Positions 4,182 through 38,520 of a DNA stretch of 64,000 bases are shown here, piece after piece (position 1 is the first letter of the stretch; every line of letters starts with the position of its first letter). Source of the stretch: Amphibalanus amphitrite (Eukaryota > Arthropoda > Thecostraca > Balanomorpha > Balanidae); assembly GCF_019059575.1 (NCBI RefSeq), contig NW_024881972.1, positions 124,001-188,000 on the forward strand, read 5' to 3'. The notes under the pieces were generated by a model. That model worked only from the letters and a program-made list of their open reading frames with translations. It did not search any database and had not been told where the DNA came from. A program made the position numbers and the translations under genes.

Positions 4182-4730
4182 TCACCGGTCCCCATGGCCG
4201 CCTCCCATGCTGACGCTGCTCGGCTCCGCGCAGAACGTCACCTGGGTGTCCGCCCTCGGCGAGCTGGCCCCCGACCTGCCCAGCGAGAACATGGACAGCG
4301 ACGCCAGCGGCGGCGGCCGGCGCATCATCTTGCCCGACGTGATGAGCCGTCCGAAGCCCTCCTGGTGCGCGAACGCGTAACCGGAGCGCACGGAGCGGCC
4401 GCGCCGCCGGGCCGATGGCGTCCGCTGGAACTCGTCCATGCGCCGCTTCTGTGCCTTGTCCTCTCGCTGCTTGGCGCGCACCAGGTCGGCCAGTGTCGGG
4501 TGCAGGTCGACAAAGTAGAAGCGCCACGCCAGCACGGGAACCATCAGGACGATGACCGTGAGGAGTGTGCAGAACCAGAAGTTGGCCTCTGACATGGCCA
4601 TGGCCAGGGAGCCCACGTAGACACCTCCGAGCACGTAGTTATAGAAGAACTGCAGCAGGATGTAGGTGAACAGTGAGCCCCAGACGCAGAGGTGGTTCAG
4701 CCACGTCCAGTATGTCGTGTCCAGACAAAT
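4182..4730 (-). CDS. ATP8B: Exon 20: M9-M10 and regulatory C-tail, stop
   Basis: Residues 1101-1282 and stop. M9 at about 1112-1132, M10 at about 1151-1173, then a basic tail with [20 protein letters not shown] (from 1215). GYAF is the conserved C-terminal motif involved in autoinhibition in Drs2p, ATP8A2 and ATP8B1. Here the usual following Ser is Ala1221. The last 45 residues are Ser/Gly/Pro-rich and not conserved. Acceptor CCGCAG, phase 0. Confidence 0.93.
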   Translation of the reverse strand: MCLDTTYWTWLNHLCVWGSLFTYILLQFFYNYVLGGVYVGSLAMAMSEANFWFCTLLTVIVLMVPVLAWRFYFVDLHPTLADLVRAKQREDKAQKRRMDEFQRTPSARRRGRSVRSGYAFAHQEGFGRLITSGKMMRRPPPLASLSMFSLGRSGASSPRADTQVTFCAEPSSVSMGGGHGDR

Positions 4731-7700
4731 CTGCGGACAGAAACGGGAGCAGTCAGCAACTGACGACAATAAATAAACCAGAAAAATGAAAGGTGCTATG
4801 CAGCTCGTCATTTATAACTCGATTCATCGTAACATACTACAGATTTAAACGCTTAATTTAAAGAAACGTGTCTTTTCATCCGTATTTCATGTGAGTCAGT
4901 TGGTTGAAAGTTAATAGGGATTTTCGAACATCTTCATTGCACCTTTACGCCCATTTAGTCAACTGGTGGCTACCAACCAACCGCGAAAATAACATTTCCG
5001 TCCACAGAACATCTACTCATAAATAAAAAATACAGAGCAAGAAAAGGTAACAAAGCAGCGGTGGCATACGCCATTCAAGCACCTCAAAACTTCCATACCA
5101 AGCCGTAGGAACGCAGCTGAGGCGAGTACTTTCAGCCGAGCCCCGACACTTTCAGCCGAGCCGCGACACTTTCAGCCGAGCCGCGACACTTTCAGCCCAG
5201 CCCCGACACGCACCTGCATGGTGACCACCACCACGAGCACTGTGGCCACGACGGCACCGAACAGCTGGTGATCGGAGATGGTGTAGCCCTCGGGTGACAC
5301 GGCGTCCTTGTAGGTGCCTGCGGCCGGAGGGGAGGGGGTCAGACGATAGGGGTGAGATGGGGCGGAGAAAGAATGTCACTGTCATGTGATTGATGCAGTC
5401 GAGTGATTTCACACATATAGTTTGTTTTTTCTTTTAACAAAGTCTATACCTGTCCTGTTAACAGTTTTTTATGTTATACGATGACTGTCAGCTATATCAT
5501 CTGCAACACTGACAGCTTGTGTCCAATTCCATGCATATGGTGCTCACTGCTCGTCTACTCACGAAAGTGTTATTTATTCTGTGGTAACATTTCACTTCAA
5601 ACCAAAGGGAAAATCTCCCGGGGAACAGGCAACTGTGCATCCCCAAGCTCTATGCTAGATACTCGCAACACATTTTACTTCCTGGTGCGACTGCCTCACA
5701 AACACAAATGGCGAGCTGTGACGTTTGGATCCCGCAGCCAGATTTTAACGTTTTCTGTATGATATCGCCCTAGAAATTAATTCAAAGTCGCCACCATTTC
5801 TCGTCTCTCATACGACATTTTCAAAGTTCGGACTGCATATAATGCATTCTCAATGTAATCCATTGTTTCATCAAGAAATTTGAGCCGTACCATACTTCTA
5901 AAGATCTTTGAGCGTCATTTTACCTTATTCATATTCTGAAGCACTAAAAATCGAGAGCTTCCTATTTGTTCCACGAATGCTCGACACTTTAGCCTAATCA
6001 GAGCCAGCTGTACTCGGGTGTTCAGCTTTTCGTTATGCCCAGCACGCCTGTCTGCATCCTCTCAGCTCCTTCAGTCCCTCTACTCACCCCAAAGGCGTTT
6101 TGTGTTCTTTCAAGAGCCCTTAACTTTTGTATGTAATCGGCCAACGATACACCCACATCGCACGTTTTCATTAAATTCCTGCTGTTCCGCTTATCGCTTC
6201 ATCCCCGCCCATCCAAAGTCCCTCCTACAAGCGTACCACAACACCGCTGCCCGATTTCCAACCACTCCGACAGCACGTCCAGCCGCTCACCATACGGCAC
6301 GATGAAGAGCACCAGCGACGTGACGAAGCCGTACGTGGCCGACTTGAAGAACTCTAACTTGTTGAAGAACAGGTCACGCAGCCCGGGGGTGTACAGCTTC
6401 GGGTACGTCAGGCTCTGGCGCTCCTTGACGTCTTGGTCAAAGACGGCTAGTGCGAGTACCGGCATGGACGTGTAGAAAAGGTTGTAGACGGCAATGAACA
6501 TAGGATCGAACACGGTCTGAAAAAGGCCAGGCGGTGCGCCCTTGTGAAAGAACGGCATACGGCAGGTGCGGTGACACGTCACGACACAACATCCACGCGA
6601 ACGCGCGCACAAAACGCACTTCACACTCACGAGCTGAAAAAAGGCTCGTGAAATCGAACACAGTCACGCATCCACAAAACGACAACACGACATCGAGAAA
6701 CAGAGAAGAGCGAGCGTGTACGAGGAACAAGGATAGACAGTGAAGGAGAGAAAACAGACAGACGAGCTGGAGACGTCCAAAGAGCATGCCGTCCCTGCCA
6801 CGTCGACCAGTGCTGGGGGCAGACGGTGCGTCAAACCGTGTCGTTCTGTGCCGAGTGTCTGTGCGCCTCCTTCTCTGTCGCTCCGTGTCCGCCGGCGACT
6901 CACCGTGAGGTATCATAAACAGCACGAGGGACGTGACGGCGCCGTGCAGCATACTGCCCACGAATATGCGTTTGTTGAAGCCCAGCGAACGCACGCCGGG
7001 CGTGTACAGTTTGGGGTAGGAGCGACTGTTGGCCGCGTTCACGTCCTGGTCGAATACGCCCAGTGCCAGCACGGGCATCGACGTATAAAACAGATTGTAG
7101 GTGGAAATAAAGAAGACGTCGTAGACGGTCTGAAACAGCGCCGCGGGCGCCCCAGCGCGTCAGCTGTGCTGTCGGACGAGCCGGTCTCCGCCGACAGGAT
7201 GCCGCGTAGGCCAGACAGGGCTAGGCGCTGGAAGAAGGCAGCAACCGTACCTACCTAGGGCTGTGCCAGACAGCGTCCCGCCACCGAACGATGAGAGCAA
7301 GGGAGCTCTCACAGGTACAAGGCTTGTGGTATTAATTTTCGCGTAGTGCGTCTTATTCACGCTGAAGGCTTAGGATTAGCAAAGAGCTGCAGTGCTCTGC
7401 CCAGAGCTATGAAGCCCACTCGTGACTCAAGCCAGGAAAAACAGCCGAAAAAAACTGACCGGCCGAGCCAGAAGCAGGACACCCACCATATATAGTGTCC
7501 GGGAAAATAACAAACAGGCAAGACAAGAAACAGAAGAGAGAAGTCAACATAAAGAGACGCAGAAGCAAGGGCAAATGACCAGAACATCTGAAGAATTGCA
7601 ATCAATGACATGATACAATGACTTTATACATAAAACGGTAACCACTTTTTACAGACAACTAAATAGAATGAACAGAACAAGATAGAACGAAGCAGCCTTA

Positions 7701-10700
7701 TCTGAACGTTCAACGTACACTCATTACACATTATGAACATAAATAAACCTCAGTTTTATGGAATGGGGTATTGGGAATGAGCAATGGTACTTGGAAATTC
7801 CAACAGGAACGCACATATCTAAAGAAAAAACACACATAGTGGGCCAGCTTCCGTAACTGGGGCAACCTGCGGCTGAACAAGGCAACGGGCAACGTTGCCT
7901 TCCAGGGTAACACCAGCCGAAGGATGGGGCTGATCAACTTTCACTCGTTTTCATAGCTATCGATTAGATAAAGCAGATTGGCATGGATCGACAGGGCGGC
8001 TGGACACAATTTCATACTGGAAATGTCAGAGGTATCGGACCGGTTTACAAATGACAGATATAACATGAATTCATGGTAGGGTATTTCAAAAGCGACAGGG
8101 TAAGAACAGACATAGCAGGCAGCTCTGTTCGGCAAGGACTTAACACCACCACATACATATAATTAGACTAATGGTTACATAAAACAAAGCTCCTGGAAAA
8201 ACACTTTAAAAATAAAAACTCATTTACGCTATCTTGAGCTTGACCACACCATTTACGCATGACGATCGTTATCAAACTTCTGACTCTCAAGACTCGCTGT
8301 CCCTTTCTTCACGGCCGTCGCCGGTCTCACCTGGGCGCTAAACCCGCAGAAGAACGAGTACCAAAAGTGGCACAGCGTGAAGGCGAAGTTCTTGTAGAAG
8401 AAGTAGCGCAGGAACTTGCACATGCGGTAGTAGGACCAGCGGCCGTGCACCAGCAGCAGCCTCTCCAGGTAGCGGAACTGGGCGATACTGTAGTCGGACG
8501 ACAGCACGGCCTGCAGACCCTCCTGGCCAGAGATGCCGACACCGATGTGCGCCGCTGTCGGTGGCAGAGGGCAGGGGCTAGTTTTTAGGTGTATGCGGAT
8601 AGGAGAGACAGAGCTCCAATGGGAAACGGTGGCAGATCAACGAGATTTGTCACGTAGCGTCGAAGAGCGTGTATGTGGTAGCAATGCAATTCATAGCGTC
8701 ATGCGAGGCAGCGAGAATTTATGCCGAAACAGTGATACAGCATCAAAAGAACATGATTGGAGGAAACAAACGTACCGGCAATAGCCAGTCATTGATCCAC
8801 ACACAACAACCACTGCTGTAAATTTAATTCCATTAGATTGAATTGTTAAAATGATTGCCCACTCATCCTTCCTGTCACCCGCCTCTCTAAATATCCCTTC
8901 CTTCTCCTCTAAAAGCTCACTTTTGATCATGGACACATCGTTGGCGCCATCGCCAATGCTGAGCGTCACCGCCTTCTTGTGTTTCTTCACCAGGTCGACC
9001 ACCAGGGCCTTCTGCAGCGGCGTGACGCGGCAGCAGATCACCGCCTGGCACTGGCACGCCACGTCCAGGAACAGACGCTCCAGCTTGCTGGTCAGCGCCC
9101 AGATGAGCGAGTGGCCGTTGATGACGAGCGCGAAGCCCCCGGAGCCGCTGGCGTTGGACGTCGGGTCCTCCTCGGGTGTGTCGTGTCCGTAGCCCTCGTC
9201 ACTGGCGGCCGAGCGTACCGAGCTGCGTGAGACGACGTCAGACAGCGGGGTGGGTGGGTGGGTGGGGGGGGGGGGGTGACGGGAGCTGGGCCACATGAGA
9301 CATTAACGAGGGTGAATTAGAGGTTGGCGGGGTTTAGCATGGTCATATGGGAGGTCGCCGAGGTCAAATGAAAGATCTTCAGGGTCATATAGGTCTACGA
9401 GATCAGATTGGAGGTTGGCGAGGTCAAATAAGAGGTTAGCGAGGTCAAATGACAGGCCGGCGAGGTAAAATGAGGAGATGACGGGTCAAAAGGTGAAGGA
9501 CAGACGAGAAGGATGCAATGAGATATGCGGTACGAAAATGTTACGCATCACTTTAAACACTTCTTGCGACAAAACTTTACTTGAAAATGATCCTCTCCAC
9601 GACAGCTGATCAAACATGCCAGCTTGCTTTTGCACCAAAAACAATCAAGAGCTAGACAATTACTAAGTGGTTTCACTTATTGAAAATGATACGATCATAA
9701 GCACAAATAAGCAATATACAATTTTCGAAACAGAATTGCGAAGAAAACATTGCAAGGACAAGCAGAAAGCTGGCACTGCCAGAGGCAGCTCGACGCACGC
9801 GAACGCACAGTCCCGCAGACGCACGCGCACAGTCGTTCATTCACTTCTATCAGACCACCCGCTGCAAACCGCTAGCCAAGACAAAACAATCATCGCAGAC
9901 CAGGTTACGCATGTACAGTTCCTGGGGAGCCGGGTTCCAGTCGACCCACCGGCCGTCTCCATTCTCACTCAGGATAAAAGGATCATACACGCTGAGGCTG
10001 GTGATGTGACGTCATAAAACAGTTCCACTTGGGTATTCACGCCATACAAAGCATATCCAAAGCGGGTGTCACCACGTACAAACAGCACAGCGATGTGGCT
10101 TTGCAGACTGCAGAAGCGGTGCCGCCGAACAAACAGCATACTCCGGATACTGAATCACAATATGTGCGAGTGACGTCAAACACGCTGCTGACGTCAATGT
10201 GTCACGTGGTCATGCTGGGCAGTGCAGTAAAAACGGCAGGTGCTCTCAGCGGGAATAACTTGGGGTCGCGAGGGGCTGCTAATGCTATTATTGCTGTCAT
10301 TTAATTGTCTCCGAAGTTTACTAGAGGACACGGGACGTGCACAGGGCAAAATGTTCTTCTCATTTGGGTTCTAACTATTGTGTCACCTCCATAGGACGTC
10401 CTCACAGCTGAGTTAAATTGAATCAGCACAGCATTGCGAATGACAGGTTGCGAGTACATTATTTACGTAACTACCGCAAATATTGATCAACTTTGACGTA
10501 GGGCTACACATGACTGGGGCCGTGCCTAAGATTATGGATGCCATCGATTTATAATCGGACAATAATCCTTCTACTCAGGTGCATATCGCTTTACCTGCAT
10601 CGAAACTGGGGTGTTTCGCCTCCACTTATCGACAAGGTATTCGATGTCATAGACAAACATATGTTTTTAAATATAACCTTATGTTCAATGATTGCGAAAT

Positions 10701-13700
10701 GCAAAAGGTTCCAAAATTAATTACAAAATGAATATATTTCGGACACTGTCCTTCTTCAGTTCAGAATTGCAAATTCTTATTTTGCATTCTGCAATTCTGA
10801 ATTCTGTATTTTCCGTATTTTCCGTATTTTCCGTATTCCGTATTTGCAATTCTGAACTGAAGAAGGACAGTGTCCGAAATATATTCATTTTGTAATTAAT
10901 TTTGGGACCTTTTGCATTTCGCAATCATTGAACATAAGGTTATATTTAAAAACATAGGGGAGAGCGGGGCCAGTTGAACCACTTTTTATATATTGACATG
11001 CACAGCGAGATCTAGTTGTCATATCGAAAAATGCACAATGCCATGAAAAAATATGCTCTTTTGGCTTTATTTTAAGATATGTAAAATTATGTTTCAAACA
11101 TATTTTGCTGCCAAACGCATGCTTATAAAACAGCTCTACGCCCGTTTCAAATGACCCCGATGCGAGGGTCAATTGAACCAGCCAATGGGGTCAATTGCAC
11201 CTATCCTTAACAATGGGATGTTTTCCTCTTTAAGGCCACTTTCTTAAGGAGATATTTTGTCCGGTTTACTTTTCCAAATGCTACATTCAATAGGTCGTTG
11301 GAAAGCTAAAAGTGCAAAGTTCCTCATAATAGGTGACATAAAGTACATAGACTATGGTAAAATGGGCGGATGAGAAAAATGAGAAACATCTCAGGCTATA
11401 GTGTGCTTTCAAGCAAAAGGCTGGAGAAAAAGTGGTAAAAAATTGAGCTCTAATTAACTACTATTTCAGTTTAAAAGCTCATTTCAAAGGTGGACTATTT
11501 CCTTTAATGTTTACAGCCCCTGAACAATAACCATTGCAAAGGTCACCGGGGTCCATTGAAACGGCCTCTGGCCCTGTTTCAACTGACCCTCAGAGAAGCG
11601 TTTCAATTGACCCCATCCGCTCCCGTCATCTCGCACGCGCCGTAAAGCACATGTCAAACGAGCTGGAGGGACGGCATCATGCTGAATGAAGGGCCAAATA
11701 AGGTGTTCTTCCGGAGCCAGGAGTTCTTCTTTCAGCAAACAAAGGTATATGAGATATCACAAAATATTCATCAGAACGATTTCTCCCAAACGCCCCTCAA
11801 AAACACAAAAACAAGTGTCAAATCAAAATTACCGTCCGTTTGCCGCCCAAACGCCGTTGACAAAGGAAGTGGTCGAGCGCGGATGCGCAGTGGTATCGGC
11901 AACGCCATATGTTGCATACTGTTGAAAATAATGCCATGTTTCATCTGACCCCGTGTTTCAACTGGCCCCGCTCTCCCCTATATATGTCATAATGCTGTTC
12001 ATACAAGTACTTCGCCATTTACTTGTCATAGACAAACAGTTTCAAGTGAATGCAAAGAGAACGAACATTGAAGCTGAATTTAATAATTTTAAGCTTTCAA
12101 GCTACATCTGCCTTTATTTTGGTATTTCTCCTAATCGCGAGGTGTCACTTTTTTGGCTATCCTAATAGCAATTGAAGTTTGTAAATTGATTTTGCCCAAA
12201 GCAGCCCTAGACCCTTAAGTTCCCTGACACCGCTCAAAGCAAGGCACTGGCGGTTGCGTTTAGGAGGCATGACCATTGACCAATCACCAATGACCAGTAA
12301 CCAGAAACCGAACCATCCACCCAGCCCGTATGCAGCTGGCAGGCGCGACACTAGCGGCACGGTGCGGCGGGTGGCGCAACTACTCACGTGGGGGCGGCGC
12401 CGCCTCTGTGGGGTGACACGTACACGTAGGGGCGGCTGGCCCAATACGCCATGGAAACGGACAGACAGAGACCTCAGTGGGACGGCCGTGTGGGGACCGG
12501 CCGGGGCAGAGGGGCGGAGACACCCCCTCCGTCCCTCTGTCCCGGCTGTGAACCCGTGCTCCCCTCCCCCTCAGCCTCTACAGCTAGTCAAAGTCGGTGG
12601 GTTCAGGTTGGCGGTGGTGGCAGCACACGGCTTTGGAACACACAGCGAGCGACGTGCACAGCGACTCGAATAACTACTGGAACCACGACACAGATCACGG
12701 TGCCCTGCTGATACCTCGGGTCCCCCGGAGAAACACATGAAGAGAAATACGAGGGGTCAACGGAGCTTTGTAGTTCAATTACGAAAGTAGCCATCTGCTG
12801 AGAATCAAACGGAGTACAGCACGAAGCTTTGAAACCTTTAAGGTGAGTTAAAACGGAAATTTTGAGTACCTATTAGAGGGATGGAAACAGGGAAACAAAC
12901 AGATATGAAATTAAAACAAACTGAATAATGATTGAAAATCCAATGACGTAAAATGGATATTATTTCACCAGCAACAAACATGGCAGAAATACAAAGGACA
13001 GCTCGTTAACAAACAAGATAAGAACAGCTGCCACCAGTTCCCTTCGAGTTCCAACAGCCAAGCAAAGTAGGCTCACGAATACTTTCCGCAAACACTTTTA
13101 CAGGTGAAGTTAGCCACAGTGTAACAGCACTAACAGAAACAGCGATGTTGTAAAAAAAAAACACCCAGACATTCAACGGATAACATGCAACACATGAAAC
13201 AAGGGTTGAATTTTGAAATGCCCACGTGCTATTTGAGGTGAGGGGAGGGGAGTCCCATCATAACAGACTCTAAATCATAGCGGCAGAACGTCTCCTTAAA
13301 AAATACGACGCCTTTCCAAAATCGTCAAATGCACGTAGCTATGAAATATATCCACAATGGAGCGAGTCAATCCAGATATCCCATGAACATACAGGCATAA
13401 AGTCATGCACAATGCACATTCATTCAATGACTTAGCGCACATTTATGAATTCGTGTCGGTGGTTTGCCTAATGCCTAGCTGAGTCTATTTTTCAATTTGA
13501 AGAAACTCCAGATAAATTTCCAGCTTTTACCGGACGGTGTTCAACCATATCGGGAGACCTCTTACAAACGTTTAGCCGCTTTTTATAACTTCCCCCCAAT
13601 TTTCCTAATCAACGAGATGTCATATCGAGGCAATGTTAATTTGTTCAACTTCATACCAAAGGCGTATTCATATTGTAAGTCCCTAGTGGCCACTATGCCT

Positions 13701-13846
13701 CGGAGGCAAAACGTTCCGTCGGTGGTCACTTCATGCAAGACGTTTACCTCCTAGGTCACCGAACACCTAATTCCAGCCTCTACCTACCACATTTACACAA
13801 CACAGCCTCTACACCCACCCAAAAACTACCACATTCACACAACCCC

Positions 13847-13902
<56 letters not shown>

Positions 13903-13996
13903 ACTCACTCACTCACTCACTCACTCACTCACTCACTCACTCACTCACTCACTCACTCACTCACTCTCTCTCTCTATCTCTCTATCTCTCTCTCTT

Positions 13997-14052
<56 letters not shown>

Positions 14053-16637
14053 CCTCTCTCCGCTCTCTCCTCTGCGTCGTACCCACCTGAACGTCACCAC
14101 TGAGAGTGACTGTTTGTGCTGGTGCGCCTTGGCGTCGGCCGACGGTCTACTCAAATCGTCCATACACCTGTTCAGCTCGGCCTCAACATCCTGCATGGTG
14201 TGGCCCTCGACGACGAACACGTCCTGCAGGTCGTCCGTCAGCAGCTGGCACGAGTAGCCGATGTTGATGGCCGTCTCTGGGGGGGGAGGAGGGGGGGGGG
14301 AGGCTCAGTGGAGCGTTCCCCAGCAGAACAGGGAAGCCGGGCTGATAGATTGAGCGGTGGGTCGATCGGATCAATTGCACGTCTGGATGATTAGATTGGC
14401 TACAAAGAGGCCGGAACTAGCCGGAGCCTGTTGTGTCGGTGAGTCGATTCTAAAGGCGGATTTACAACAGTTGGGCTTATACAGAAATGCGTCAGCATGA
14501 AAACGAGGACGTTCTTGCCTCTGCACCAAAAAAGCAAAACAACAAAACAGAGGGAACAACAAATGCAACAAACAAAAGCAAGCAAGCAAACAAGCAAATA
14601 AAAGAGATCAGCAAAAAATAATATTTCCTTATAAGTTGAGCAACAGCAACAACAAACGTATGCGTCTTGGCTGCAGCGTCGAGTAAGAGTCCCGAAATAA
14701 CAACACATAACCAACTTCATTTATTCGTCATTTTAATTTACATGGCTCTCACTCCGGTTTCTCACCCTGTTTGTCTCCCGTGAGCACCCACAGTCGGATG
14801 CCGGCCAGAATCAGGTTGGCGATCGTCTGCGGCACACCGTCCTGCAGTTTGTCCTCTATAGCCGTGGCACCTGAGAATTAGAGCACGCAAGTCAACCGCA
14901 GAACAATTATTCTTCTATCAAACACAAGCACAATCAGACATCAAACCTTACTCCTCTCAAAATACGAAGATAATATAATCGAACACAAAATACAAAGTCC
15001 CTCTCACACACGATACTAGCTAAGCCCTTCTTCGTCCACGGTGCCCTTGCCATCCCCCGTCCACCGCTGCCTTGCAGCCACACCAACCCACCTATCAGCA
15101 CTAGATCCTTTTCGATCTCCTCGAACAAGGCGTCCAGCTTTTCATCGCGCTCCACCAGTGAGACGGAAGCCTCGTGGTGTCGCTTCTTCCACTCCTCAAA
15201 GTACGCGTCGTCCAGCTCCTTGTACGCCAGCACGAGCGTTCGGAGGCCCTCGCCGGCGAATTTCTGTCAAGCAGAGACATTTCAGGGCGGTTAGGAGAGC
15301 GAGCAATCACATTCACAGGCATTCGCCGCCATTAGTCTTCCCAAATGAAGCTAAACGAGACACGATACCTGCAATTTCCGTCAATTCCTTAGGAAACCGC
15401 ATAATCATCAGTCAGTTGTATCGGCAGTTGCTCACAACAGCCAAAGCCTACCGACTGCCCAACCCCAATGGGCACTTCTAACCACCACGTCATGAGACCT
15501 ACCTGCCAAAGCTCGATCATCCTACTGGGAGGTACAAAACGTCATCGTAAACAAGATATCTTTTCACCCACAGCGAGCATTTACACGCCACTGCAACATC
15601 CTCTCTCTTCTCACCTGAAGATGCTCCTCCGTGCGCGCCTTCGTCTCCGGCTCCACATTGCCCAGTCTCTCGAAGACGATGTTGTCAGCTCCCTTGCAGT
15701 ACAGCCTTATTTTACCGCCGTGCCGCAGGATCACCGACATCCGCTTCCTGACGTTGTTGAAGTCGAGGATGCAAAGCACCTCGTGCTCCTCCTCTCCGCG
15801 CGGCGTGCGGATCGTGATCGAGGACGGTGTGCGGGAGAGGAACACAAAGCCGAAGTTGCGCGCGGCAGACACCAGCGCGTCCTCGTCCGGAGACTGCGCC
15901 TGGTACTTCAGTTTACCTGCGGGGAGAAGAGGAGAGGGGGAGACGATGGTCACGTTATGGCCACGGATGGTCTACTCACCACTCCTCACTGTCCTTATCA
16001 GTCGTATCGTAACTTAACTACTGATCCTTCACTATCCTTACCACATCCCCATCCCTGTCTATCCCCATTACTACCCTACATCCCATTCTCATAAGCTGCC
16101 ACCATCCCAACAAAAGGCTGGTGGGAGCTTAGACTAGGCTCCCACCATCCCTTCGTTATCCTCCTGTCTTCTTTCCGTTATCCCCTTTCGCTCCTTCTAC
16201 CCTCCTTACCATCCTTTTCCTCCGGCATCACGGTGTGACAGAGCGACAGCAGCCGGAAGAACATGTGGCTGTCCTCGTCGCCGCTGTTGACGGCATCCAG
16301 CAGCGTCTGGTCGAAGAAGCGGAATGACGGCTCGTACATGTCGTTGGCGGAAAAATCCACCGCTTGGGTGTCCTGACGGAGACACAGAAAGGGAGAATGT
16401 CAATCGGTGTGGAGGAACAAGGGCTAACTGACCTTGACGTGGATGAATGGCTTGATGCCAATGCCCATTTCCAAGCGCAAAAACACACCGGGTATCTCAC
16501 AGCTCCTTGAAAATCACCGCAGCTACGTGATATGACTGACACTGGGAAAGTTTAATATTGACTCAAAACGTCAGTGCACGACAATGACCATCACACCACC
16601 AGGCTCATCACATCCCGCCACATTATGGGCCCGACCA

Positions 16638-16670
<33 letters not shown>

Positions 16671-19600
16671 CCATCGACTGAGTGCTCACTGCTCAGCCAT
16701 CTCTCATCCATCTAGCAACATCGTCCGGCTACCAAATCAGTGCCCGCTGGCGTCACTGAATCGGAACGGGTCGATCGTCTAACAATGGAATGGGCCGTCC
16801 GGCGCCGCAAATGCGCACTTAGACCGTCTAACGCATTTCAATTAGCCAGGTTATGGCGTCACCCTAGTGACTGACACACCATTTCGAGTCTTGGTAACCG
16901 TGGCATCAGTTTCATACCATATTAAACTGTGGCGACCACAGACAACACTGAGAGGGAAAGGAAAGTGGTATGAGGCGGTTTTATCTACTTCGACCGGGGC
17001 GTGGTGACCATATCGCAATATGGGAGGTAAATTTCCCAAACTCATAGTGGAAGCCGTGACGGGGCCCCAAAATGTCACCATTAATCCATAAACTGAAGCA
17101 TATCGTTGCATAAAGAGGCCCCATAAATCATGGTGAGGTAGTATGGTCCATCACCTAATCGGAAATTATAGCTTGAGCTGGGCCTGTCATCACGAGGGCG
17201 TGGTCGCAGAGGTGACGCACGTGACTCGTGGGTCCTGAAACGTGACGTGACGAGAGAGCAGGTGGACCAGGGTTATGACACAGAATTCATCGAGGAGAGT
17301 GACTACGATGTTGCCCATTGCTCTTCACTGCTACCTGTACCATTGCACATCTTTTTATTCTGCTCGCTATCGCATAAGAAGTGTTTGTTCGGAAAGCATG
17401 CTTTCAGGATATGTCATTTTCCAATTTTCATCCACAGGATTAGCCTCTCCGCATCTTTTATCCTTCACCCCTGTCCCGGACTAGGGGTCACCCGCCCCCC
17501 CCCCCCTAGCCGGTGGGGATAGCACCCGCGTTAGCACAGCCCTCCCGGGTGATCAGCTGCGCAGTTGGGTAACCTGTCCCACCGGGACACGTCTGTCCCA
17601 CGGGGCGGGCTCAGTTGCGGCGCACCGAGTCACCGCGATGTCTCGTGCCAGCCCAATATCTCGTCTTATCCTCTCACGGCCCCCAGCCCTCTCACGGCTC
17701 ACGGCCCCGAGGTGGTCTGAAAAGGCTGAAAACTCCCACCAATGAAAAAAGCAGAAAAGTACATGCTCCAAAGGGTCCGTCAATGCTGAACTCTCAAGGT
17801 GGAGACATTATCGGTTGGTGAACAACACGAATGACCAACACAAAACGTCCATCGCAACGAGTACTGCTGGTCTAATCTTTAGAGTCTCGTCTCTGACGCA
17901 CTCAAGAGTCAAGAGGCGCTTGACCGAGGACCCACCATCCATGGGGCATACCGAGACCGTAGGCGTATCACGCACTCGCCCCTGGGAGGCACGCTCGCAG
18001 CGGGTGCAGCGCCATTCATTACGGTCCGCCCTGTCAGACATCCATTTCCCATTTAGCGCTGACGAGCGACCGACGGCAGCGATGGCCCGCCGGCGCGGCG
18101 GCTCCGGTCGCCATTTAATGGTCATTTGTCACGCTCTCCGGGCGTCCCCGTGTCCAGTAGACAAAGTAGTGTCACACACTGTGACGGGTTCGTCTGTCAG
18201 TGTCGGTCAGGTCAGCCCGCCGGCGTGACAGGGCAGTATGTCAGTGTAAAAGGTCAACCTGACAATGCAAGCTGGGCTGGCCTGTAAATGTGACAGGACT
18301 GTCAGTCAATGAATGCGTCAATCTGTCACTGTGACAGGTCACGTTTGGACCGTGGTCGAACTGTCACATATTGTGAATATGTGGGCCCATGTCAGGATTG
18401 ACATACTGCATAGCTTTACCTTCCAATGTGAATTGACGGGCAAACGTGACTCCGTGCTCTCACACAGCTTCCCTGCTCAGCCACGACAAATACCACTGAG
18501 TCAGACGGACAAAGCCCTAGACACCAGACACGTTCCAACGAACCCGGACACGAGGCAACTTAGTGGCCCTGGAGACAAGGCCGGGGCTAGAACCTAGAAC
18601 AGTCGCACAGCGTTTTGTGAGAGCGACTGCCATCATGAATGTCGTATTCTGTCGATCGGGCGCAATAGTCCGTCCGTCCCGGGCAGCGTGGTATATTGCT
18701 GCATTGTCAGCTAGCGCGGCGCCAAAGACGGAGTCGACGGCGACACGTCGTTCAGACCTCGTCGGTAGGTTATGGACATTCACGCGGCACAAACAAGCGT
18801 AGCCGTGGCGACGCGTTGCTAGGCAACAAGCGACGCCACGCAGTCGGGGACTCAGCAGCGAAGAGAAGGGACGGGGTATCAGTCGGTATATTATAGGATC
18901 ATAGAGCTAAGCCGTGATTGGTCAAACAACACAGGCTCCGCAGCAGACGAGCATCGGCGAAACGCTAACGAGGTCGTCAATCCTATTCCGAGCAACACGA
19001 TTATCCAACATGATACGAGAATTCCAAGCGTTCCACGACTTAGTCTATCCTCGAGGACATTGTTGAAACACTGAAACGTTATGGTATAAAATAATCCGCC
19101 CTCCAGCCATTGCCACTCAAAACTTGATAAAATCAATAGGTTTTTACGGAGCGAGCGAAGCGAGCAGAGTCTTTCCTTAGATTAACGGAAATTTCTGAGT
19201 ATGAGCGGCCGGCCGGCCGGCCGTGCGGACGCTTTTGCGAGGCTTATATCTCAGCAACCACTTGACCGATTTACATGCGGTAATTTTTGTAGGGTAGCTT
19301 CATTCCTTCTACCAAGTATTGTACTATTCCCGATGCATGTGGGTGACCCCTTATGTACGTGCCACGTGCAAAACGAAGAGGTGTCAGTTTTGTAATTGTT
19401 GCAATATCTCGGTAACTACTGGGCCGATTGCGCTGAAAGTTGGCATGTAGGTAGGCACCCACTAGGCAATGCATATCCATGTGCCAGAGTTGGGGTGCTG
19501 CTGCACGTGCGCACGTGCAGGGGTCGTTTCCAGATCTCGAGAACGGCTCGACCGATTGCGCTCAAATTTGGTACACAGTTGGGGACCGGTTAGTAGGGTG

Positions 19601-22600
19601 CCGTGCAAAAGTCAGTCGGGACCCATTTTGCACGTGCGCACGTGCAGGGTGTCGCTTCCAGATCTCGAGAACGGCTGGGCCGATTGCGCTCAAATTTGGC
19701 ACATCGCTAGAGACCGGTTAGTAGGGTGCCGTGCTTAAGTCAGTTGAAGGTACCCCCTCGCAATTTCGCACGTGCAAGGCGCACCCTCTCGCTCGCTCCG
19801 TTAGTCGCCCCAAAAGGCGTTATACTGGTGGTATTGAAATACGGCTAGACTGCGTCTTAACAGTTCTTAAAATGCCGCAAGACATCAAAGCAGGCCCAAT
19901 CACACAAACTGCATCTCATATCCGCGTGCGTCGAAACTTTGGCCGCCTTAGGCGCCCAGCTGACTGTAAACTCTCGCAAAGCGAAGCCACAGAGCAGCTC
20001 TCGGTCTCATTTCACTAATTAACGTGACTCCCAGGCTGCTGCATATTTCAGCATCAATCTGAACCAGACCTTAATTGGCGGTCTTTCAACTTCCAACTGC
20101 GCGGCGAGTTAGCCGAACAAAGATCGCCGGCACAAGGGAACTGGATGGCTGTGACTAAGAGTGGACTACCACAGCTAGGCCAATGAAGGTAATCTGTACC
20201 AAGAGGGAGCACCTACCCACTACATAAATTTCATATTGACAGATCGGAGATTATCTACGCCATTGTCAGTCGCGATTACACATTATTTACTGCCAGAATC
20301 CTGTCCAGGCACCAAAGCCGAGTGCAGATTCAGAGAAACCGTACATCACATGACAAAATAATCATGCCCGTGTCCGTGTCAGCGTCCCTCTCCATTTCAG
20401 CGGGTGCCACAAAACCATATGACAGCGAGACGTAACAAGTCCGTCGAGTACGAGTTGTGACAAAACAGGGTATGTAGTCGGCTTGGCATGGATACCCGCC
20501 GCGCTTGTCAGTGTCAATGTCGACTATGTTCAACGCCAGCTCTCTCAAACTGTCAATGTCAACTGCAATGTCATGGGGTCAAAGTCGGGTTTGTCTGGCT
20601 ACCCACCTCGGTTGGTTCAATGACCTCCCCGATGACTGGATCGATGAAGTCGCCATAGTTTTTCCCCGCGATCGAACACTTGTTGAATACCATGATGTTC
20701 TGCAAACAAAGCGCCAACACGTTAAACAGAGTTGAAACTATAACGAAAGCTGCCAACTTTTTATTGGAGCGATGAATCGCACCATAACACCTAATGAATG
20801 ATGATGAGACTTAAGTGGGGAAATTAAACTGAAGGAACGACGATACCGACGGCTTCATCAACTTAATTTGGCCTTCTGTGATTAAGCCTCGTGAAATATG
20901 AAGTGACGTACAAGTTGCCTAATTTCAGGCCCTCAAGCCCGTTCGCCACGACGAATAGCCTGAATTTTTCAACGAAATCATGTAACCTATAATAAAAGAC
21001 ACCAATCCGTACCTAGAGCATTCCCGGTCCTAACCTATTCCAGTCCCACTCCACCCATTCCAGCGTCATACCTGCGTCAGCGTTCCGGTCTTGTCGGAGA
21101 AGATGTACTGGACCTGTCCCAGCTCCTCGTTCAGTGTGGTGGTGCGCGCCTTGGCCGGCGTGTCTGACTTTTCGTGATACATAGCCAGGTCCCAGTTAAT
21201 GAGAAAGCTCTGCATCAGCCGGATCACCTCTACACTGAAGGGCAGAGCGACGGGGGAGGGAGAGAGTGAGAGAGTCAGAGCAATGTCGCGAGGCGGACGG
21301 GAGATGGAAAGTCGGGGACTGAACTGTGATTATATTTCCGCTAGAGACGCCCTCCAATTATATCCACGCTGGAGAGAAGAAATGGGGAGGAATAGAGCCG
21401 AGCTCAGGCAGTTAAAAGCGTGCTTCAGGGACGAATGAGCTGGTAAAGAGCAGCGCTGTTTTCAGGCTCATTAGAAAAGGACCGAAAACGAGAGAAGACG
21501 CATTATATAAGAAAGCTTATCTGACGATTAGATGACGGTTGAGATGCCTTTTGTATCACATTCACCATTACGAACAGAGACCGATACAAACGAAGTACGT
21601 AGTACGAACAGCAATGAACAATCAAATATGCATAAGAAACTTGTTCTCCATCACGAATCGATTCCACTCACCTGACATACAACGATATAGGCACAACGGT
21701 GTTGAGTACGATGGCATACGAGAAGAAGACGAGCAGCGCAGTGACCGTGGCGCCCGCAGTGGCTCCCTCGGGCGCCAGCGCGTCCCATGGCAGGTACACG
21801 CGGAAATACTGACCTGACAACCGAGAACGAAACGGTCGATACACGAAATTACAGCTGAGGAGACAGACCCGGACAGACCTACAGACCTACGGACACCAAC
21901 ACCAAACGCTCACAGACCTGACCAATCAAAACACTGACCAATCAAACGACACGGAACGCTCAACAAGCAGAAATTACACGCGGAAATACTCAAATGTCGA
22001 AAATGACACCAAACGCTCACGGACACGTCAACACAGGGAAATACTGACATGGCGACCGACACAGAGACGCTCAAGAACACACCCCAAGACATCCATAGAA
22101 ATGCTGACCCGGACGCCGCCACGAAAATAGGCTCACAGACGCACAAATAAGAAAAAACGAATTAATGTCCTGTCGTGGGCAGCACTTTCAGCGTGCCATG
22201 TGTTATATATTCACCACAACTCATTAAAAGTATAGCGCATAAAGAAATTCAAGTGAGCCATAATCACAAAGGTACCATTACCCGAGCCACAGTCCGAACT
22301 CGCCATCATTTAACGTTAGTCAAGTGTTCAAGTGGTGCAAACTGCGACTGAGCCTTTAGTTTCAAATACTAGGAACTGAATAGAAATACTGGGAAGTGAT
22401 TAACCATTCTAACGACCACGATAAGCGTGCTAGCTGCATGGGTACTCAAGCAGCTCTTATGTCGATGAAAGCCCTTTGTCGAAAAACTAAAGGCACTTGT
22501 CGACCGAATGTGGAGCAAACAAGAAAGTTAAATAACCAAACTCAGAATTTTCCTCAGATCGATAACAATCAAGATCATTTAACACATTTTGAATAAATCC

Positions 22601-25600
22601 CTTGCCTAGAAATGAATGCCCACTGACGAATTACTTTGAAATCGGCTAATCTATTTGATATTGAAACGACGGCTGTTCAAATGTACTTTGAAAGCACACT
22701 TACAAAAACATCACTCACACTCAACCCACCAAAAACACTGAAGCACCATTCCTCAAAAACAGCCTTGCCTTCGGTCCCACAGCCACCATTACCTATCGAC
22801 TCGAACGCCGATGTTTATCGTTTTCCGCCGCAAAAGCAGCTGGTACGCGGTGTCGACTCTGGACGATTGATACAGGTCCGCGCAGCCATGCTAACGCTAC
22901 CAAATGGACAGCGCGGCACTGCTGCACAGCGCCGCAGCCAGCGAGTTTGTCGTACCACAGTCACTCACCAGTTACAGTCTCCCAGATTCCGCAGGCAATA
23001 GTACAAAACAGGCACATCAGTAGCAGGAAACCCACGATCTGAAACAAACACCAAAGGGACGTGTGTCAGACAGGGGCGTGGACTAGAAGCGAAAGGGATG
23101 GGAGGGTTTGAACTTCACCCGTGACGCAGAGGGTCACAGGGGCAACAGTAACTATCACTGGTATAGCAACAGCACCGAATAACGCATCGTCATCAGGTGA
23201 ATACGTTATGGTGTATGAGCGTGTATAAATCCACCCTGGATAGGATGACCATCACAGCAAGTAAGTCGTTTCTTACGGACAGTAATTGTAAATAACCTGA
23301 ATACGATTTCATTATTACGCTCAATATAGGAATCTCCAATAAGGTTATTAGTCCCAGCCAAGCAATAAGTCCTCATACGGGCGTGGACACAATAGCTAAG
23401 CCCATTTAATCCCTATTCACAATGCCTTCGACGGCATTGATCCGCTTCAACAGAAAGCAGGCACCTGGGGGACGGAGCCAAAGAAAAAGCACATCGGTCT
23501 ATTCGGAGCAGCACTCAAGGCTCGGCAATATACGCACTGTCGCACCGATAGCAACTGACGATATGAGCCTTCTCGACATATCATGCGTCACTCAACACCG
23601 GGACACGTTCTTTAGAGGTGAAACAGGGCGTAAAAGATGCATGTTCAATGCTTGCTATTTACGCCTTCAGGCGCCCGTGCTAATACGCCTCCAAAAAGCC
23701 AACCTTTCAGCCCAAACCAAGGTGCTCCGCGATATTACACATTACAATGTGTGGCTGAATGGTACCTAAGTCGTTGGTCTACGGCGCTAGATCAACCAGT
23801 AGTCAAATTACTGAAAATGGGCCACGTGAGTCGAGCTTCCCTACTCCAACTAGCACCCACACGAGCCAACTCACCCCCAGAATAATGACATTGAGAAGCC
23901 GGTCGATGCTGGTGCGTTTGAACTTTGTTTTGCCGGAGTTCTGCATGAGTTTGGTGTCACGGCCGGCGAAGATGACCACGCCGTAGCACCACTGCGTGTT
24001 GCGCAGCACACATCCCCGCAGCAGAATCTTGTCGTTGTCCAGCGCGAACCTGACGGCAGAGAGGTGACGGGTCAGTGAATGGAGGTCGCCGGGGTCGGGC
24101 GAAAGGGTTCAGAAGGGACGACCGATGGTCAGCCGGGTCATATGGACAAAGAGGGGCTGCAGAGGTCCGAGTAAGACGGTTCCCTGGGGACCAGGCCAGT
24201 TGGACAGGACCATGGCAGCAGTGAGAGCCCACATGGGATTGTACCAAGCGTGCTGGGTCACTGGCAATTTGATGAATACATCGTGAAGTCTTAGGATGAG
24301 CCGCACTGACTGGACACTGAACAGTGCTCGATACAAAAAGAGCATCATACGTGAATACACGACGCAAAGGTCCAAGTTCAGCACAGGCGAGCCATTCCGC
24401 CATCCCTTGCACAAAATTGGGAGGTTAGTTATTACAAAAAATATTTCACAGCTCATAGCTGGCCTATCTATCGACCAAATATCCATAACCCAACGTTCAT
24501 TCCATTCACGTACGCATTAAGTTAGGCGAAACAGCCAACTCCAACAGCCACAGCGTGAACTTCTCCCTGAAACGGCCCAAACTCCTGGAACTTATCCATG
24601 CTTAAAGCTAAAAGTCCATACGGAGCCACGCCAGAACTCTCTTGAGGGGCGAGAAACGTTGTTCCCGAGCTGAGCCGAAGCGATCAAAGGTGCCACTGTG
24701 ACGAAAATACACCCCCGCGCTCGTCCGTTGAGGAACAGTGGTGTCATTTTGCGCACGTTTCTAGTGTCATCACCATCAGGCGGTGCAGTTTCTTAGAATG
24801 ACGCTGAGAATGGTGTCGTTTGATGTGAGGCTTATATTGGATGGGACGCACAGAGGACAAATGTGAAATGGGACTGAATGCAAAACGTGTTTTGGGAGTG
24901 CCGGTGACAAAACAACAGCAACAACAATGTGCTGGCAAGGACCACACTTTTTGGAACAAGACGTCTCTAATGGTTGTAAGTAATCCGCAGATATGCAAAC
25001 CGGCGAAAATGCAAAAGTCCCATCAGCAATCAGCATGCTATGGTCGTTTAGGATCTAACGCCTACAACATTCCATGATAAAAGAAAGCAGCGCAAGCGAA
25101 TGCATGATTATCATTGGTTCGCGTCTGTACACACTACACACTATTACACAGTCAACACGTTCCTTTGCGAGCTCGGTTATGGCGAAAGAAACCTCTCATG
25201 GCAAACACAAACCTTCAATTTGTGTCAATACCAGCAAATTGGATAGCGAGGTCGCAGCAAATACCGACGTCATTGCAAGTCGGCGCCCCTAGGCATAAAG
25301 GAACTTCAAGCTTCATGACATTCAGCAAGATGAAACATAAGTCGACCTCCAACGAATGTCTAGGTACTTTACATTCTCCTGACGGCCCAGGTAAAAAAGG
25401 ATTCACTTTTTCTAATTCACCACTTGTTAGGTAAAGATATATTGTTCTTATTTGATTGTTTTATTCTACACGAATAACACAAAAGTCAGTCGGAACATAC
25501 TGCACCATGAAACATCGCCGCCTAAGCATCGCCATTTTTTCTTTCAATCCTTCTTTTCCATCATCGCAATCAATTGAACACAATATCCTTCCTTCCCGAT

Positions 25601-28600
25601 AGCAGCAACGCCGTTTCAACGCCTTTTCACACATTCTTTCCCACCTTTGGCGTCAGGTCGCGTCTTTTTCACCAGGTCGGCTCGCGTGGTCGCTGACAGG
25701 GCGGCTCTTGGCACCGCCGGAGCGACGGAACGGGACTAGTTAGACGTGAGGCGAAAACCCTCGATAACAGTGATAGACTTCTCGCGCTGAGCCACTAGTT
25801 GGAGACTCTGACGGTCGGGCCTGCGTGATGGGCGACACGGAACGCGGAAAATTCGAGGAATTCGCCGCCCGAGTGGCCCGCTCTGACGGAAAACAAGTCT
25901 ATTTGCGGAGATGCCGTAGCAATGCGGGCAGCGAAAATATAGACATCCGACGGAAACTGGCTTGCTATGATACGATAAAATGGCAGACATATGTCACACA
26001 AGAACCTGCTAAGTAGCATATTATATATTAATCATTGAAGGGAAAGATGATGACTGGCCTAATAACAGCAGCCAGACTGATAACTATCAGCCCAATAGTG
26101 AATAGGTATTAGTTAGCCTGGTTATAATCAACGTAAAACAGACCTTATATGACCAAACACTTGGGTGGTCAGACAAAAATCCTTCATTAGAACACAACAA
26201 TTAGTTCCGCTCTAAGAAACGACAGACTCTTGACGTTCATAGGATGAATTTAACAGCTACAAATCCTGGCATAGTTAACTAGGTATAGATAAATCAGACA
26301 GAAGACCCATAGAAGTCATGAAATAAGTTTAAAACCAACCTAATCCGGCGAAAAGTAATTCATTTATTATTAATAACCCAATGATTGTTAAACGTCACAG
26401 CTCTAGGTGTCAGCCGCGCCCATTAATCTGCCACCAAAGCCGTGTCAAAACCAATTTCATAGTGTTAGGCTGACACAGAGTCACGATATACGGTCGGCTC
26501 TAGATCACGACCGAGCGTTTGTGACGGCCGTGATTCACGCCACTGCCAAATCATCGACTTAGACCACGGCAGTCGGCCATTCTTCACGTCCCACAAACGA
26601 AATCAACCAAAGCCTCAGTCTGGGTCACAGTGACGGCCCAGTACCACAAGTGTCAAGGCCACGGCCTTCAGCCCGACTTCCGCAAACCCACCGAAAATGG
26701 CGCACTGTGCAACAGATTTCCGGGCCCTGCTAGTCAATAGCCATCAGGAGATCGACCACACAAGCCTGCAGGCACAACAGGCGACCGGTCTCACAGACTT
26801 CCGTCGCTCGTCGGCCGGTGGCGGGGCCGAAAATACAAATTAGACCACGGCGGCACCAATCCGGGAAGCACGCGCTGTACACACGCAAACCCGACAGAAA
26901 TGCACGCAAAGAGCACCCAGACAGCGCGCAAAACAAGAACAAGGTCGCGCGTGCGTCAGTGCCAACGAAGGGAGTCTCACATCACCGCCGCCAGGACCAG
27001 CTGTTTCGGGAACCGCGTGGTTAGACGCTGTGAAGAGAGCAACATGTGTCTCGAGGTCGTTCATCTTCGGCTCTCACGCGTCGCTAGTCGGGCCAATATG
27101 GATCGGCGCGTCGGCGGCGACAGAGGTCAGCTCGTCGGCAGAGCGGCTCCGAAGAAAGGCGGGGGGAGGGGGAGAGGAGGGGAGGTCGGCGCCCCGCGGC
27201 GACCACGGGGGAGCGGCGAACAATGAACGATACAACGGCCACTGAGCTCCGTATGGGAGAGAGAGCTGAGAGTAGAGATTGAAGGGGAGAGAAAAGGGAA
27301 AGGCAGACGGCGTGCTGGGCAGTGGGCATGGAACTATTGTGGAGGCTGGAGTTTGGATAACCACCTTTGTACGAACAAAATATGGTTAAGCAATACAATT
27401 CACTCAGTTTCCCAAAATATAAAAGTACTAAATGGGCTGATCTATTGAGACAAACAAAACAAAAACTCAGAAATTCAGCGAGGAAACCGTCACGACATAT
27501 CGGCGATGCATAGGAGTCATGCGGTGCAGTATACCCTCAGGCGTATGCGCTCTAATGCCATCTAGGGACAGAATTGGAAGTCCGGCGGTGCAGTATATCT
27601 TTAGGCGTCTTCCCTAACACCATCTAGGGACAAAATTGGAAGTCCGGCGGTGCAGTATATCTTCAGGCGTCTACCGTAACGCCATCTAGGAACAGGATTG
27701 GAAGTCCAGCGGCGCAGCATATCTTCAGGCGTCTACCCTAGCGCCATCTAGGAGCACGTTTAGCGTCCAGCGAAGCAGCACACCACCTTCAGTCACTGTC
27801 TGCCTCAGTAGCATCCCTAACCGACATTACAACGTGGATGGTGGCTGAGAATGGTCAGCCTCTGTGTCTGGGTACTAACGTCGGAAAGTCACAAGGAAGC
27901 GCGTCGATGATGAAGCATGTGAAAGAGCAGCTCAATTATTGACAGCAAATCGATTTTTCACATCGACTTGTCACTAGGCGACATGTATTTTTCATCAGAC
28001 ACTAATGTGAGAAAGCAGCTGAATAATGTTCTGTACACAGGTGGGTGCAAGGAAGTGCGAGTCGCTAGCCATTCCATTGGACAGTCACTCACCCCCAGAC
28101 CCCCATACAGAACACACACACAGGCAGACATACAGACGGACTACGTTGACCGACAGGTGGCCCCTCGGCCGACGGCGGCCGTGTGTGGCTCCGTCGGCCC
28201 GGCGACCCGCCCCCGTCCCAGTCCGTCGGCCGGGAGACGGCCGTCAACGGACCGGCGACTTGCAACAACAGCTAGCTCTGACCGCGCACAGCTGCCATGG
28301 CCGCGGCGGGGCGGGGGCGGGCGGCGGGGGCCCCGGCACGTACCCGGGTCCGTATCGGCCACAAACAAGTGCTGATCGTGCGCTTCAGGCGGTTCAGAGG
28401 CTCTGAGTAAGGCCGCTGGATCAGCGGCGGCGTGCGGCCGCATTGGCCGGAGCCCGGTACGGGGTCGTTCGTAATCTGATACCAGGTGGCCGACGGGGCC
28501 CTGATCTGAAGACGAGCCCCATAGATAAGGCGGGCACATCTGACCCAAACAGCCAAACGACCGCTTTTGAAACATCACTGACGGCCAGCCTTTTGGAAAA

Positions 28601-37600: not shown

Positions 37601-38431
37601 TAGACAGCTGATAACTCATTCCCGTACGTCGTAACTCTATAATGACCTTTGCTTATTGTCAAATGTGCGCCGCATTCGCGATTGTTGCCGACGCCTGTTT
37701 GCAGGTCAGCCCACTATAGTTGTTATACATATCGAAAAACCGATAAACTTTTAGGCGAAAAAGGCACTATTCCAGGCCCATTTTTGATTTTCTTTGCGAT
37801 ATTAGGTAAAAACAGAAGCTTCTTATCCTAGGAAAAATAAAATGGGAAATCTTTCAAAGGTGGCACACTACCTTTAAACTGTAGTTGAAGAATAAAACAA
37901 ATAGTGATTTTCTAAATTTGTGGCTTCAAAGCGAGGTGCCACATATTCTTCTGACAATTATCCAACCTCTATAAGAAACTCATGACAAGTACCCTTTATC
38001 ATCGACACATGTAAAGCCTCGACCACACAAGGACGCCATCCTGTGTTCCCACCCTTCTCCAGCTCCGGTCCTGCGTGACCTCAATGAGCGCAGATTGTTC
38101 CATCCCTGCCGTCCAATCGACCCGGCCCTCGGGGCTGGTGGTTAATGCCGGATCCGTGTGTCGGCTGGGTGTGGGCGGCGGAGGCGTAATTCCTCCTCTT
38201 TACGCCTAACCTGCCTCCTCCCACCACATCTACGGATCTCCTCCCATCCGCAGTACCTTTGATCACTCCCATCCTCCCTTTCTCACTCGCCCGTCTCGCC
38301 GAACAGTCTTGATAAAGCTTAGTTTAGATGAAGCTTGGAACCTCTCCCTCCCTCCCTTCGTCACCCTCACCCACGATCTCGATGTAGCCGACTACTCCTT
38401 CCATCCCCATTCCCCGTCTCTTACTCTCCCC

Positions 38432-38520
<89 letters not shown>

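Follow-up and report, generated by a model that had tools for sequence, protein, structure and literature searches.

We found that the ATP8B-type P4-ATPase (flippase) gene of the barnacle Amphibalanus amphitrite carries exon 18 in two versions, and the overall reading that we hold to be rather probable is that these versions, 18a and 18b, are tandem-duplicated, mutually exclusive exons of old origin, the choice between which would tune the pump. The gene lies on the minus strand at positions 4185..55320 of the window (initiator Met exon through last coding exon). The window is the whole stretch of 64,000 nucleotides that was analyzed and belongs to contig C475 of an 807.55-Mb assembly of 2,644 contigs. 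The gene was delimited by tblastn with P0121, an NCBI protein of 1282 aa named "phospholipid-transporting ATPase ID-like isoform X2 [Amphibalanus amphitrite]", which aligned with each successive exon between 55320 and 4185 on that strand. The gene product matched the P4 C-terminal domain (PF16212, E 3.5e-85), and its best solved relative was ATP8B1, with 239 and 241 bits versus 147 and 141 bits for the next best. The DKTGT phosphorylation motif and the PISL motif of TM4 (VPISLYV) were both present in the exons matched by P0121. By its sequence, the gene is a member of the ATP8B branch of P4-ATPases. No Rfam family was found in the window at the gathering score.

Read in the direction of transcription (all features on the minus strand), exon 17 (8331..8554) ends in TM5 with ...CGFSAQ and a CAG/GTGAGA donor, phase 0 out. 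It is followed by an intron of 1201 nt (7130..8330), exon 18a (6904..7129), an intron of 387 nt (6517..6903), exon 18b (6291..6516), an intron of 973 nt (5318..6290), and exon 19 (5214..5317), which has a CGCAG/GC acceptor and phase 1 in. Exons 17 and 19 are common to both isoforms, and 18b is the version used in P0121 (isoform X2). Both 18a and 18b measure 226 nt and code for the segment from TM6 to TM7. They have TTTCAG acceptors, GTGAGT and GTGAGC donors, and are open in the expected frame, with phase 0 in and phase 1 out. Counting the glycine codon split at the exon 19 junction, 50 of the 76 residues are identical, and 58/76 are identical or similar. The first-pass annotation had described a tandem pair of equal length and phase with this degree of identity, and its description proved accurate. 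A 20-bp minisatellite (4.1 copies, 95% matches) was noticed at 5128-5209, starting four bases past the exon 19 donor.

Chance resemblance of the two exons is excluded, because exon b used as a query recovered exon a in its own genome with E = 1.6e-25. When P0121 was searched against the window, exon 18 was the only exon of the gene to give two matches at E < 0.01, and no third copy of it was found in the window at this threshold. In the genome as a whole, no exon 18 pair was found beyond those on contigs C475 and C84, the other matches having E > 0.04. C84 bears a second, allele-like copy of the flippase gene, and the P0121 model is placed on a contig of 1,165,004 bases, the same size as C84. 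In this second copy, exon a is intact, with two nucleotide changes, both at third positions, and no amino acid change, and exon b is likewise intact, with four nucleotide changes and one amino acid change. The intron between 18a and 18b is 387 nt long in both gene copies and 96.4% identical. Between C475 and C84, neighboring exons are 96 to 99% identical and introns 74 to 96%.

It had been argued at first pass that using both copies or neither would break the frame. Translation of the spliced frames bore this out. Indeed, joining exon 17 to either 18a or 18b alone kept the frame into exon 19. Inclusion of both exons created a stop codon within exon b, with two more junctions downstream of it, and inclusion of neither brought in a stop near the beginning of the last exon. 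Such a loss of frame is common in mutually exclusive exons, though not required for the class. A possibility was that the second exon serves to control output, the inclusion of both giving an early-stop message and hence less flippase through unproductive splicing. The a+b stop, lying inside exon b with two further junctions downstream, would suit this idea, but each exon codes for a TM6-TM7 segment that is complete and conserved, something not required of a poison exon, and we regard a role of this kind as very improbable. Mutually exclusive use, as first proposed, is still the best reading of the tandem order, the equal length and phase, the reading and splice frames preserved in both genome copies, and the presence of a-like exons in other crustaceans (see below). 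From the anatomy of the gene, it appears very likely that 18a and 18b are used either/or in the barnacle.

As a means of enforcing this choice, an intron too short to allow the joining of a to b was ruled out, since the gap measures 387 nt. A search of the three introns for long-range pairing gave a best duplex of -60.0 kcal/mol between the last part of the intron preceding exon a and the first part of the intron following exon b. This duplex beat eight shuffles, yet among 3,406 pre-mRNA windows, five or more sites lying outside the three introns paired equally or better. In the second gene copy, 46 of the 60 bases of the duplex site were kept and the pairing was weaker (-53.7). No convincing RNA element enforcing exclusion, such as a docking site/selector arrangement of the Dscam type, was found in the three introns.

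Exon b is, to judge from the proteins recovered, the common arthropod form. Three protein searches gave 295, 266, and 192 matches, of which the best 120 were listed in each case, and among the matches listed the full-length arthropod proteins carried a b-like or ancestral exon (TVFDPMF..., TLFDPMF..., TLYDPVF...). Exon b was present in P0121 and in P0122 from Pollicipes. Among the 195 ids of listed full-length proteins, an a-like stretch occurred only in a gene model from Armadillidium. The protein database was clustered at 90%, a level at which isoforms differing in 26 residues share one entry, and P0121 represents 29 sequences. Because this clustering merges isoforms, the small number of a-like isoforms in the protein lists is weak evidence of their absence.

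A-like exons were recovered in several other records. Two of these are barnacle-like in sequence, namely P0198, identical to barnacle exon a at 70/76 residues, and P0208, identical at 58/76 and having splice-like ends. P0228 was identical to P0198 across their overlap. The longest contig is given as 4,611 bases both for P0228, which is a-like, and for P0241, which is b-like; this suggests, without proving it, that a and b lie on one contig. In the crayfish Cherax quadricarinatus, the gene-model fragment P0197 contains exon 17 and then an a-like exon, and this exon 17 is identical at 75/75 residues to that of P0004 and P0005, two full-length Logan ORFs of 1,179 residues that have a b-like exon. 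In the isopod Armadillidium vulgare, an a-like exon is represented by 41 residues in the gene model P0001, and a complete b-like exon comes after it. The record P0246 matches the first half of this Armadillidium a-like exon and continues as ...LYTPGLLNLYFNKKTFVLSAIHGAITSALIFFIPYG. Finally, in P0242, which comes from merc, presumably a marine eukaryote transcript catalogue, the exons upstream of 18 are joined to the a-like TVYDPFFISTYNVFFTSMPIIVVGIY. The upstream part of P0242 shows 91% identity over 149 residues to P0149 from the copepod Lepeophtheirus, and P0242 is probably a copepod a-like metatranscript. A search for the tandem pair in relatives, as had been recommended, was thus rewarded with an a-like and then a b-like exon in Armadillidium and an a-like exon in Cherax. 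Judging by these records, exon a is not a barnacle oddity but has relatives in other crustaceans. Seven fragments (P0202, P0203, P0204, P0206, P0209, P0210, and P0243) read through an intron of ~51-78 nt straight into a b-like exon. Because the preceding intron is just that long, there is no room for an upstream exon a in these seven records, to which the statement is confined.

The same records bear on whether exon a might be a seldom-used or decaying copy, largely ignored by splicing. As a matter of fact, the annotated barnacle model, P0121, uses b, and the Armadillidium model is the only one with an a-like stretch among the listed full-length ids, although the 90% clustering may hide others. 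Of the analogous Na+/K+-ATPase pair of a barnacle, only one copy was present in cDNA according to the available part of PMC3793950. Decay is at odds with the frame, length, and splice sites of exon a, intact in both genome copies, and with the open frame seen in P0198, P0208, P0197, and P0246. Nor does seldom use agree with the joining of an a-like exon to exon 17 in both Cherax and the merc fragment. We thus hold it to be quite unlikely that exon a is an idle copy, and keep to the reading in which both exons serve.

The age of the duplication was approached with a tree of 37 exon sequences and 76 columns, in which the isopod a row was a composite of two records. The five a-like rows formed one group (91/79), found in 92% of 200 bootstrap trees. 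Within this group, Cherax and Armadillidium came together (97/87), as did the three barnacle-like rows (99/97). The 22 b-like rows also formed one group (79/93). In an earlier tree, which included a short copepod row and a shorter isopod row, six a rows were grouped (79/81). The branches of the exon tree are long.

The separation of a-like from b-like rows in the free tree speaks against a duplication restricted to barnacles, in which the a-like exons of the crayfish and the isopod would stem from a separate duplication and have converged on the same residues. The AU test nonetheless left a group of barnacle a and b standing. Forcing the two together was 5.75 log-likelihood units worse in the main tree and was not rejected (p-AU 0.188), and it was 7.04 units worse in the earlier tree (p-AU 0.185). 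There is little signal in 76 columns, and the Thr that marks TM6 of a-like exons (see below) also occurs in the fragments P0229, P0243, and P0255, two further points in favor of separate duplications. Moreover, the resemblance between barnacle and malacostracan a-like rows (47 to 50/76 residues identical) is not clearly greater than the average identity of barnacle a with b-like exons (65%). Evidence of another kind comes from Armadillidium, which has the same a-then-b order, from one 14-residue stretch common to barnacle a and isopod a, and from the motif HGA[VI]TS, common to barnacle a (Amphibalanus and P0198), Cherax a, and the isopod P0246. Support for one origin is stronger from the exon order and the shared signature than from the tree by itself. 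On balance, independent duplications appear unlikely to us, and the pair likely goes back to a single old exon duplication that preceded the split between barnacles and malacostracans and was kept since. Barnacles sit under Communostraca in the NCBI taxonomy. Malacostracans also belong to Communostraca, which would place the duplication at or before that ancestor.

Exon 18 aligned without gaps to residues 978-1053 of human ATP8B1, whose structures with CDC50A (8ox4 and others) are the closest solved relatives, likened here by sequence match only. The 26 residue differences between a and b comprise 7 in TM6, 8 in the TM6-7 loop, and 11 in TM7. M6 had been called nearly constant at first pass, but 7 of its 31 columns differ, versus 8/19 in the loop and 11/26 in M7. 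Across species, the columns that best mark a-like exons were found in M6 and M7 rather than in the loop. In ATP8B1 numbering, these a-like marks are Phe at 983 (W983), Thr at 987 (L987), and Ala at 1041 (V1041). Among the 30 b-like and outgroup rows, the Phe and Ala marks recur once each and the Thr mark never; in the curated set, Thr at the L987 column was present in 6/6 a-like rows and 0/30 others. Thr at this column was ruled out as a diagnostic a-marker on its own, being also present in the fragments P0229, P0243, and P0255. These three fragments have an FFxSTYN- or ATYN-like TM6 and come perhaps from other animal groups.

The R1032 column holds Ile in barnacle a and Glu in barnacle b. The a-like rows have I, V, V, V, and T at this column, and the 22 b-like rows have Glu in 20 cases, with Ala in Armadillidium and Gln in Hyalella. 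Elsewhere, Glu was found in the vertebrate Cirrhinus (P0200), Lys in tardigrades, and Ile in the spider Parasteatoda; in this alignment, Arg is not the family's usual residue. According to the part of PMC10657443 that was available, R1032 on TM7 is the commonest PI(3,4,5)P3 contact in ATP8B1 simulations (0.97), and the PI(3,4,5)P3 pocket of ATP8B1 is formed by TM5, TM7, TM8, and TM10. An excerpt of PMC9045818 further describes contacts of the CDC50A tail with the TM6-7 and TM8-9 loops of ATP8B1. The earlier suggestion that swapping the exons changes regulation or partner contact fits these structures, with the CDC50A tail on the TM6-7 loop (PMC9045818) and R1032 on TM7 (PMC10657443).

We propose that the spliceosome would join exon 17 to one of 18a and 18b, and then that exon to exon 19, the outcome being two flippases that would differ solely by 26 residues, spread over TM6, TM7, and the loop between them. 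The duplication would have preceded the separation of barnacles and malacostracans, with relatives in a crayfish, an isopod, and probably a copepod, and the pair would have been retained. The swap would alter the phosphoinositide pocket on its TM7 side as well as the loop touched by the CDC50 tail, leaving the core transport residues unchanged, and exon choice would set the responsiveness of the pump to phosphoinositides, CDC50, or both. Given the position and the residues concerned, we put forward only tentatively that exon choice may tune pump activation.

The a-marks in TM6 would fit an effect on transport itself just as well. The pair could thus be real and serve substrate choice or transport rate through TM6, rather than regulation by lipid or CDC50. 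The best a-marks correspond to W983 and L987 in TM6 and V1041 in TM7 of ATP8B1, and L987 is two residues from N989, which has its backbone carbonyl at the water site (excerpt of PMC10657443). Yet N989 and T993, the carbonyls of which line the TM4-TM5-TM6 water site of ATP8B1 (same excerpt), are kept as Asn and Thr in both exons, and the G1040 column is also kept in both. A role in transport strikes us as somewhat improbable. Returning to activation, a more specific version is one that we hold to be rather doubtful: an early-crustacean duplication may have created a splice-selectable TM6-TM7 cassette that resets the phosphoinositide gate, giving crustaceans two regulatory modes since then and leaving insects without them, with exon b offering Glu at the R1032 column and exon a a hydrophobic residue, beside a conserved basic residue.

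Mutually exclusive exons are known in P-type ATPases. In the barnacle Balanus improvisus, exons 11a and 11b of the Na+/K+-ATPase alpha subunit are likewise in tandem and called mutually exclusive, and exon 11 has two to four copies in other arthropods; this pair differs in belonging to the ion-pump subfamily, and only 11b was seen in cyprid cDNA (available part of PMC3793950). ATP10B is likewise a P4-ATPase with a mutually exclusive exon cluster, but this is another P4 gene, and the cluster exists in Eutheria and not in marsupials, as stated in an excerpt of PMC5740500. PMCA (ATP2B) also has mutually exclusive homologous exons, in arthropods and nematodes included, but these lie in the C-terminal region (PF12424, calmodulin-binding helix) and not in TM6-TM7 (excerpts of PMC4465641 and PMC9741552). 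Within the same family, Drosophila dATP8B (CG14741) is needed for odorant receptor function and has seven predicted isoforms (excerpt of PMC3961175), and its exon is b-like (P0025). In C. elegans, tat-2 isoforms differ at their ends (excerpt of PMC2572054). In the literature searched, which consisted of open-licence papers, no description was found of a TM6-TM7 exon pair in ATP8B or of the splicing of this gene. The available part of PMC11100700 contained the search terms but no such flippase pair, and term counts were zero in those of PMC3228551, PMC7954323, and PMC3923563. What is new here is thus the place in an ATP8B protein and, if one origin holds, the unusual age.

In the available part of PMC10657443, the ATP8B1 authors state that their own work gives no immediate clue to a direct link with phosphoinositide activation. 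A natural pair of flippases whose differences are confined to TM6, TM7, and the loop between them provides a ready-made swap experiment for phosphoinositide switching. Should the tree be right about the age of the pair, crustaceans need two ATP8B forms, which seemingly have never been looked for.

Some minor features of the gene and its surroundings were also noticed. The intron before exon 17 (8553-8918) is just 74% identical between the two gene copies, its neighbors being 91 to 96% identical. On comparison with C84:1023000-1042800, two segments of the window, of about 1.8 kb (445-2242) and 1.4 kb (10660-12023), had no match, and C84 has about 2.7 kb extra at window position 12820. Intronic CT-rich microsatellites of the flippase gene are located at 13850-14073 (56 copies of a 4-base unit) and 38417-38535.
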